Part shown: one piece after another, positions 60,843-63,501 of the stretch
Layout: every line of letters starts with the position of its first letter
Position numbering within the stretch: position 1 is the first letter of the stretch
NCBI GenBank assembly: GCA_913060665.1
Contig: CAJXUY010000008.1
Location: forward strand, 119,301-183,300
Length of the DNA stretch: 64,000 nucleotides
Origin: an uncultured Oleiphilaceae bacterium
Lineage (GTDB): Bacteria > Pseudomonadota > Gammaproteobacteria > Pseudomonadales > Oleiphilaceae
Direction: 5' to 3'
Translations under genes and position numbers: made by a program
The notes under the pieces: model-generated
What the model saw: only the letters and a program-made list of their open reading frames with translations
Databases searched by the model: none
What the model was told of the DNA's origin: nothing

Positions 60843-61826
60843 CTAGCGCTCTAATGGACTTATAACACCACTTGCACCTTGGCCTAGTACATGGGTATAA
60901 ATCTCAGTAGTTTCTACATTCGCATGCCCCAGTAGTTTTTGAATCGTTCTAATATCGTATCCCTGCTGTAATAAAGATGTCGCGAAGCTATGTCTAAAGG
61001 TATGGCAGTTTGCATGTTTATGAATACCTGCTTCGGTGATAGCCGCTTTAACTGCTCTCTGAACCGACCGATCCATTATATGATGTCGCCTGGTTTTATC
61101 TGATCGAGGGTCAACAGAATAATTGTTTGACGGGAATAAAAACTTCCACTCTAACGATGACGCTGATTTTGGGTATTTATAGGCTAGTCTATCTGGCATA
61201 TATACCTCACCAAACCCATCTTCAATATCTTGGTTATGGATTAACTGAACCAATGCAATTTGCTTTTTTAGCGCCGCATGAAGCACTGAAGGTAAAATTG
61301 TTGAGCGATCTTTACCCCCTTTACCATCGCGTACAATAAGCACGTTCATATTGAAATCAAGATCTTTAACTCTGAGCCTAATGCACTCGGATATGCGAAG
61401 GCCTGAGCCGAACATCAATTGTGCCATTAGTTTATAAGGTCTCCGTAACTCATCAATGACACGTATCGCTTCATTATGAGAAAAAACCACCGGTAATCTC
61501 TGTGGCTTCTTAGCATGAGAAAATTTCAAGTCTTTTAGTTCAATACCCAAAAACTCTCGATATAAAAATACCAGCGCATTTAATGCTGTCCTTTGCGTAT
61601 TTTTAGCCGCATTGAGTTGAACCCCCAAATGATCAAGGTACATTTCAATATGTGCTTCAGATAAAAGAGAAGGGTGCTGTTTATTATGGAAGCGTATGTA
61701 TCTTATTATCCAGCTGACGTAGGTTTTTTCAGTTTTATAAGCTAAGCCTTTTTTGCGAATATAGAACCGTAGTTTATCTACAAACCGCTCTGGTTTAGCG
61801 GGAAGAGGGGTGGGGATATCCTGCAT
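60843..61826 (-). CDS. intI: Integron integrase (IntI-type tyrosine recombinase)
   Basis: [57 protein letters not shown]; IntI-type extra segment [45 protein letters not shown] before the ATG. Confidence 0.95.
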
Positions 61827-61860: not shown

Positions 61861-61884
61861 TACTGTACATAAATACATACAGTA
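61861..61884. promoter_or_regulatory. LexA-like dyad upstream of intI
   Basis: TACTGTAcataaatacaTACAGTA; contains CTGT-N8-ACAT at 61863-61878. The full dyad spacing is N12 between CTGT and ACAG, so it is non-canonical. Confidence 0.5.
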
Positions 61885-62088
61885 TATCTACATTAAACCT
61901 CTTAGTATTAGTAAGTCTGAGATGAATACTTTGATTCAGCTTGTAGTCGTATTTGTGGCTGTTATTAGAGCCGTATCAAACAATAAAAGTCAGGATATAC
62001 GACAGTATGTCGCTTTTTGAATAAGTCTTTTATATAAGTATCTGTATTTATTGAGTCTATAATATTTATTAGTGGTGTCACTTTTTTG

Positions 62089-62115
62089 CAAATTGCGACA
62101 CAGTGTCGCAATTTG
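62089..62115. repeat. 27-bp perfect palindrome in the integron leader
   Basis: CAAATTGCGACAC-A-GTGTCGCAATTTG. Confidence 0.95.
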
Positions 62116-62203
62116 AGGGAATGGTTAGCCATATTGCTAGGCTAATAAATTGATTTCTATTGAAATGATTTGTTTTTAAACGATATTATAAGCAAAAAGT
62201 AAT

Positions 62204-62237
62204 CTACGACATGAGGTCGTAGAATTAGCTGTTATAT
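62204..62237 (+). other. Inferred attI crossover region (junction G62231|T62232) with an adjacent 7-bp dyad
   Basis: GTTATAT at 62231-62237 is the exact complement of the first cassette's R'' ATATAAC (62543-62549); CTACGACatgagGTCGTAG at 62204-62222. Confidence 0.75.
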
Positions 62238-62668
62238 TTCAAAATTTCAAAAGGAGTTTTATGCAACGCGAAGAATTGAAAAGCCTTAATCAGCTCCTAG
62301 AAGATGCTATGTATTCGTCAACAAAGAAGGAAGCTCAAGTTTATTTAAACCGTTTAGAGTTTAGTGCAAACAACCTTAGAAGTAAGGTAGAACCATATGC
62401 ATATAATAAGCTGAAAGAAGCAATTAACTATGCAAAACAGGCATCAGGTCAGGCCAGTGAAAAAGAGCATTGGGTTTCTTCTGCCCAGCAATCATGGTTT
62501 GTCTTTGAAAGTGAAGTTAGTGACTGAATCGTACTATCAAAAATATAACAAGGCCAAGCAACATCAGCCACTTCATGGCTTGGACAGCCTTGCAGCCGCG
62601 CTTTTTGTACATGGCTTCGCCATTGTTGCACAAAAAACACAACTACAAGTCTGCCGTTGTTGGCAGCG
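62232..62668 (+). mobile_element. Integron gene cassette 1 (437 bp)
   Basis: Bounded by the attI junction and the attC1 cleavage point; R' GTTATAT / R'' ATATAAC. Confidence 0.88.
62261..62527 (+). CDS. Cassette-encoded 88-aa hypothetical protein
   Basis: AAAAGGAG RBS then MQREELKSLNQLLEDAMYSSTKKEAQVYLNRLEFSANN...; only sizeable sense ORF of cassette 1 outside attC. Confidence 0.75.
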   Translation: MQREELKSLNQLLEDAMYSSTKKEAQVYLNRLEFSANNLRSKVEPYAYNKLKEAINYAKQASGQASEKEHWVSSAQQSWFVFESEVSD

Positions 62669-62674
62669 TTAGTT
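62543..62674. repeat. attC1 (132 bp)
   Basis: R'' ATATAAC, hairpin-rich core TTTTTGTACATGGCttcGCCATTGTTGCACAAAAA, R' GTTAGTT; near-identical to attC2. Confidence 0.93.
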
Positions 62675-63062
62675 GTTTTAATCCCCAAAGATTGAGGGGT
62701 TGAGTGAACGGGGTGCGGCTGAATGTACTGTTCTTTTCGTCACATTGTTCGATCTTAAACAGGCGTATAATATCCCGTTCTGTTTAAGACCACTTCGTAA
62801 GAGGCTGATACAAGTTTCAATCAACATCATTCTTGTCCTGATCAAGCGAGAGTGAAGGGCAAACAAAAGATCAAGATTATTAAAACGTAGTAGTCGGGAA
62901 GTGGATTGTTCTAAACAACCATCTAGGCAACCGCACAACTAACAAGGCCAAGCAACATCAACCACTTCGTGGTTTGGACAGCCTTGCAGCCGCGCTTTTT
63001 GTGCATGGCTTCGCCATTATTGCACAAAAATCACTACTACAAGTCTGCCGTTGTTGGCAGCG
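62669..63062 (+). mobile_element. Integron gene cassette 2 (394 bp), no convincing ORF
   Basis: R' GTTAGTT / R'' AACTAAC exact complement; only a minus-strand 86-aa ORF with a TTG start inside the attC boundary. Confidence 0.9.
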
Positions 63063-63068
63063 TTAGTT
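62937..63068. repeat. attC2 (132 bp)
   Basis: AACTAACAAGGCCAAGC...GGCAGCGTTAGTT. Confidence 0.93.
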
Positions 63069-63501
63069 TTACTAGGCATTTATCTTACTTAATTCGTTAT
63101 TTAATAAGGATATTATGACCAAAACGTTATTAGTAGCACTTTCTGTTTTTTTAATAGCATGCAGTACGGCAAGCAACAGAGAGGGTAAAATTGTCGATGC
63201 GTCTTCAGATTATTGTCGTGAAATACGCATAGACCGTCCAGAGCTGTATTACGACATATGTGAGACTACTGGTGGCTGGGAAGATAGAGATCCAAAAGGG
63301 TATGCTAAAGCTCATGAGCAGCAATCATTTACAGGTGACTTTGTTGATGATTTCGTAGACGGCGCAATAGACGAAGCTGTAGAGCAGACGGTAGAGGGAA
63401 TTTTCGATGCCCTCGATTAACAAGAAAACTAACCAGCAAATGTTTAGGATAGCTTTGCTACGCGGCTTCGCCTCTCCACAAAACTACCTAAAATTAGGGC
63501 G
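63063..63501 (+). mobile_element. Integron gene cassette 3 (439 bp)
   Basis: R' GTTAGTT / R'' AACTAAC exact complement; one lipoprotein ORF. Confidence 0.88.
63115..63420 (+). CDS. Cassette-encoded 101-aa predicted lipoprotein
   Basis: MTKTLLVALSVFLIACSTAS lipobox; RBS-like AAGGA. Confidence 0.8.
   Translation: MTKTLLVALSVFLIACSTASNREGKIVDASSDYCREIRIDRPELYYDICETTGGWEDRDPKGYAKAHEQQSFTGDFVDDFVDGAIDEAVEQTVEGIFDALD

Follow-up and report, generated by a model that had tools for sequence, protein, structure and literature searches.

The closest described system is attI1 of class 1 integrons, in which the L, DR1, and DR2 counterparts are bound by IntI1 (PMC3518468). Two extra IntI sites are present in attI1, and the full site favors attI x attC recombination (PMC3518468, PMC8946536). 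Most attI sites are reported to lack accessory integrase sites, which may have been acquired on mobilization, and no DRs are reported for Vibrio cholerae attIA (PMC8191803). Extra IntI sites are likewise reported to be lacking in a class 4-like Aeromonas chromosomal integron (PMC10609294). No description of remote integrase sites was found in the literature searched, older subscription papers on attI being outside its range.

The attI leader described here lies in a 64,000-nucleotide stretch of DNA from an uncultured Oleiphilaceae bacterium (the window, defined here as the whole stretch analyzed). Like V. cholerae attIA, it is part of a sedentary chromosomal integron and has a candidate Pc just upstream of attI. 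Like attI1, it has an IntI-adjacent site, a GTT crossover, an L box, and extra upstream sites that contain a TAYG core and are oriented like R. It differs from attI1 in half-site sequence and in extent: attI1 is ~65 bp long with only DR1 and DR2, whereas the window site is ~235 bp long, has two further remote dyads, and has no DR2-like site at -42.

Integron Locus

The features of the locus are as follows.

60843..61826, minus strand: intI, integron integrase of 327 aa, intact (full frame; TIGR02249 418.6 bits, cut-off 265)
61863..61878, intI promoter region: LexA-like box by sequence, CTGTACATAAATACAT (one mismatch to CTGT-N8-ACAG)
62000..62012: dyad 1, CGACAGTATGTCG (CGACAgtaTGTCG), with the extended left half GATATACGACA
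62096..62108: core of dyad 2, CGACACAGTGTCG, within a perfect 13-bp inverted repeat at 62089..62115 around CGACAcagTGTCG
62160..62189, plus strand: candidate Pc, TTGAAA-N18-TATTAT (consensus match only)
62207..62219: core of dyad 3, CGACATGAGGTCG, extended by 8-bp arms to TCTACGACatgagGTCGTAGA at 62203..62223; the left half is a DR1-like site, and the outer part of the L box forms the right half
62216..62227: L box, GTCGTAGAATTA, invariant in four homologous leaders and aligned in 72 attI sites
62231..62234, plus strand: attI crossover G^TTA (G62231^T62232), where homology with a second leader copy stops
62232..62668, plus strand: first cassette (ORF 62261-62527; attC ends at GTTAG 62668)

The intI gene begins with an ATG at 61826 and is divergent from, and adjoins, attI. 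It encodes the only integron integrase in the whole 4.39-Mb genome (a single TIGR02249 match over the cut-off). A relative in the genus, G001, has CTGTACATGAATACAG at the position equivalent to the LexA-like box. The TATTGAA and -10 region of the candidate Pc are largely kept in homologous leaders.

GTTR is common at the crossover among the 72 leaders. The second leader copy, located on contig C5, confirms the crossover position in the window: its match breaks off precisely at this point, and a different cassette comes next. The ORF of the first cassette has no Pfam or NCBIfam family match. Cassette 2 (62669-63070) has no convincing ORF of its own; it is the first cassette at the C5 attI, and a similar cassette comes first in G003 (L015).

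Leader Dyads

The initial annotation placed three CGACA-based dyads at 62000-62012, 62096-62108, and 62207-62219, with centers about 96 and 111 bp apart and the last about 12 bp before the attI crossover. The dyads are found exactly there. Their centers measure 96 and 111 bp apart, and the end of dyad 3 is 12 bp from the crossover at G62231, as set by the second leader copy. The axes of dyads 1 and 2 are ~225 and ~129 bp before the crossover, and 207 and 111 bp upstream of dyad 3. Dyad 3 is located a short way downstream of the start of the candidate Pc and has one mismatch (T/G) to the exact motif. Dyads 1 and 2 are both in the interval that separates Pc from the intI promoter.

The left half of dyad 3, TCTACGACA, is in the place and orientation expected of DR1 and shares TACG with it, at an offset that differs by ~4 bp (the attI1 query was verified on plasmids). 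By analogy, the correspondence of the left and right halves of dyad 3 to DR1 and L of attI1 points to IntI as the probable binder.

A further sequence between dyads 1 and 2, GTGTCACT at 62074-62082, is invariant in four homologous leaders and looks like a degenerate TGTCGCT half-site.

Genome-Wide Count and Second Leader Copy

The motif is rare in the genome, with five exact CGACANNNTGTCG sites in 4.39 Mb. The chance expectation for a 10-base pattern is 4.2 (4.39e6/4^10). Four of the five are in the two leader copies (two in the window and two in the C5 copy), and it is therefore the clustering, not the count, that is non-random. A single match on contig C12 is consistent with chance.

The second leader copy is the reverse complement of C5:6141-6443 and is 81% identical to window positions 61932-62234 (305 aligned positions; L006, L275). 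It contains all three dyads at similar spacing, and the match ends exactly at GTTA. Past its crossover, the copy runs into cassette 2 of the window and then a cassette array. Only 2 of 30 dyad core letters are changed between the copies, compared with 19% across the whole alignment. No intI remnant was identified beside the copy within the first 16 kb of C5. A single integrase apparently serves two attI sites, each with cassettes downstream.

The arrangement of the window would suit dyads 1 and 2 as IntI operators only, through which IntI represses its own promoter and/or Pc with no part in recombination: dyad 1 is upstream of both the LexA-like box and the intI promoter, and the candidate Pc lies between dyads 2 and 3. 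In the intI-less C5 copy the dyads are retained with no intI promoter in cis, although they may control Pc there, and a purely operator role is considered unlikely. Retention of the dyads in this copy favors a putative role tied to attI or Pc over one at the intI promoter alone.

The C5 attI module adjoins a gene that in the relative G001 has an Rnk-like gene after it instead. The Rnk-like gene was considered as the ancestral neighbor of the C5 array, but this genome (G000) has no close homologue.

Leaders of Related Genomes

IntI is present in 5 of 5 genomes of the window's genus. All three dyads are kept in G001 (IntI 89% identical) and G004 (IntI 76% identical), so the conservation on which the initial annotation had staked the motif holds in homologous leaders. 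The G004 leader is identical to L033, and the four-leader alignment is composed of the window, C5, G001, and L033. In this alignment the CGACA and GTCG of dyads 1 and 2 are invariant, as is GTCGTAGAATTAGCTGTTA, which covers the right half of dyad 3 and continues to the crossover.

The CGACA dyads are absent from the G002 and G003 leaders (IntI 56% identical). These leaders contain other repeated motifs, GGGAAG-like, the last of which is again right before AATTAGCTGTTA or AATCAGCTGTTA. Distant integrases, even in the window's genus, have a different half-site with a similar layout.

Stem or Protein Site

Dyads 2 and 3 fold at -14.6 and -11.0 kcal/mol, respectively, and terminator-like matches are present at dyads 1 and 3. 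Both would fit the dyads acting as hairpins or cruciforms, whether as RNA structure, terminator, or extruded DNA. The four homologous leaders show no compensatory change in the dyad arms beyond shuffles (169-222 of 500 shuffles reach the observed value; four sequences, low power). Compensatory stem evolution had been suspected from the C5 copy and was rejected from pair counts on the four leaders. In L033 the left half of dyad 3 drifts while the right half is invariant, and other lineages also carry their half-site as direct repeats. A structural role of this kind is quite improbable. Fixed cores, free flanks, and a drifting dyad 3 left half form a pattern that would be typical of a protein site and speaks against an RNA or cruciform stem.

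Positional Layout across Integrons

A first set of 80 IntI loci of GTDB genomes, plus the genus and one locus from a viral collection, yielded 72 leaders with an assignable crossover. In most of the 72, an inverted pair abuts the crossover with its axis ~17 bp upstream. Palindromes are 3.8x enriched in the bin at ~17 bp before the crossover (60 leaders), and in 56 of 113 leaders the arms of the innermost dyad match at 5 or more of 8 letters, compared with 12% at random positions. The half-site is particular to each lineage, examples being TTCGTATA, GTCGTTGA, TACGCAG, and TTGATAG.

Recurrence of a leader's own half-site upstream was compared with that of half-sites from other lineages (own-versus-foreign test). 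In the 72 leaders, the own half-site recurs ~42, ~145, and ~260 bp upstream of the crossover, and foreign half-sites do not. The p-values are 6e-6 for -275..-215, 8e-7 for -160..-115, and 2e-5 for -50..-33, and the control stretches show no excess (p=0.69 and 0.46). The crossover rule and test windows were picked after inspection of this first set. The unchanged test was then applied to a non-redundant hold-out of 53 leaders, none closely matching the first set, with the same but weaker result: p is 1e-4 for -160..-115, 0.005 for -50..-33, and 0.026 for -275..-215, the last weakly replicated. Control stretches of the hold-out again show no excess (p=0.85 and 0.36). All p-values are optimistic owing to non-independence among related leaders.

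In the combined set, the own/foreign ratio is 16.5x at -48..-37, 6-9.5x over -156 to -133 (9.5 at -156..-145), and 5-10x over -276 to -241 (10.6 at -276..-265). Dyads 2 and 3 of the window fit the common positions, and dyad 1 is nearer (-235 versus ~-265). An own half-site near -42 is absent in the window and the C5 copy, though many relatives have one. Dyads 1 and 2 are clear palindromes in some lineages only; elsewhere, single half-sites or widely spaced pairs are present. Generic palindromes at the dyad 1 and 2 positions in all lineages were looked for and not seen, strong enrichment being confined to the dyad 3 bin.

Chance clustering combined with shared ancestry of the leader would fit a genome-wide exact-motif count near expectation. 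The own-versus-foreign test, with its controls, contradicts this reading, as does the presence of the same layout in lineages whose leaders are unrelated in sequence and whose half-sites differ, and it can be regarded as very improbable.

Among the highest-ranked TIGR02249 matches, taken as a class-level hold-out, most had no crossover recognizable by the trained matrix, and the support for the rule comes from the other integrases. IMG/VR yielded only five distant integrases, mostly uninformative.

Half-Site and Integrase Identity

Half-sites differ by 0.3-0.65 of 8 letters between integrons with IntI at least 70% identical, and by 3-4 letters at 50-70%. IntI distance and half-site are correlated (Mantel rho 0.415; 0 of 2000 permutations reach this value). 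The two IntI types of Marinobacter are 68% identical and differ in half-site. CGAAC/GTTCG is a Marinobacter counterpart of the CGACA/TGTCG of the window. Oceanisphaera, which belongs to a different order, has an IntI 84-90% identical to one Marinobacter type and the same half-site as that type. The half-site also switches along with IntI in the window's genus, and one Kangiella MAG has two integrons with IntI 79% identical and different half-sites.

One strong exception was identified. M. mangrovi and M. halodurans have IntI 98% identical, and their half-sites differ. Marinobacter halodurans (G904; L180, L182) has two integrons with diverged integrases and leaders that are 92.7% identical over 316 bp. 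A leader probably passed between these two integrons by attI leader conversion within the genome, and the mismatch with M. mangrovi would result from this swap. Such a swap leaves one M. halodurans integrase beside a non-matching site.

The initial annotation also suggested a regulator controlling Pc. The 3-bp spacers and conserved halves do resemble operators of dimeric helix-turn-helix proteins, as a separate dimeric transcription factor would require. No single recognition sequence is found across the host genus, as an operator would have, in either the window's genus or Marinobacter. The half-site differs between integrons of one genus, even of one MAG (L075/L076), it is common to different orders together with the integrase, and no regulator gene adjoins intI within the window. 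A host factor would leave unexplained why half-sites vary along with the integrase, and this part of the initial annotation is improbable. Switching of the half-site with the integrase points to the behavior expected of IntI, not of a host regulator. Regulation of Pc or intI by IntI itself is possible.

Proposed Extended attI Model

The leader is probably an extended attI with an array of IntI-type sites, in which the remote pairs tune recombination and perhaps Pc/intI expression. The attI architecture analogous to class 1 that was proposed initially is supported by the half-site being specific to the integrase lineage, by dyad 3 as an L box plus DR1-like site, and by positions kept across many genera. 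As judged from sequence, the CGACA dyad motif is one lineage's version of this wider layout.

Dyad 3 would be composed of two IntI monomer sites placed back to back. This arrangement must be assumed because the halves are too close for the usual facing recombinase monomers. The right half of dyad 3 would be the L box, the partner of the R box at the crossover, with an accessory site of DR1 type as the left half. Dyads 1 and 2 would be remote pairs of the same half-site. With IntI at the dyads and the intervening DNA looped or wrapped, the array probably helps assemble the attI x attC complex. Occupancy of the dyads would also damp Pc and/or intI, as predicted from the positions of dyad 3, just past the Pc start, and of dyads 1 and 2, in the interval from Pc to the intI promoter. 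Putative IntI binding could serve recombination, expression, or both.

Phage lambda-type attP is a recombination site with a core, remote recombinase sites, and intervening DNA. Both it and the window site have remote sites; in the window, these share the half-site of the core.

A more general form of the model is tentative. Many sedentary chromosomal integrons may have an attI of ~235-270 bp in which remote sites, specific to the integrase, stand at fixed distances, and IntI would bridge from these sites to the core. One nucleoprotein loop would then control cassette capture and the Pc/intI promoters, and mobile class 1 integrons would keep only the inner part (L, DR1, DR2).

To our knowledge, attI annotation outside the classic classes is mostly beyond current tools, and the array would supply a sequence rule for it. 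The specificity between attI and IntI would become directly testable by half-site swaps. If dozens of chromosomal integrons do carry a lineage-specific array at fixed positions, the view of accessory sites in PMC8191803 would be reversed.

Distinct attI Type

Seven leaders (L163, L171, L173, L189, L202, L215, and L216) have a GC-rich dyad followed by TTAA right before the crossover. Most of this group also contain a AATAATTATTATG tract upstream and represent a distinct attI type.
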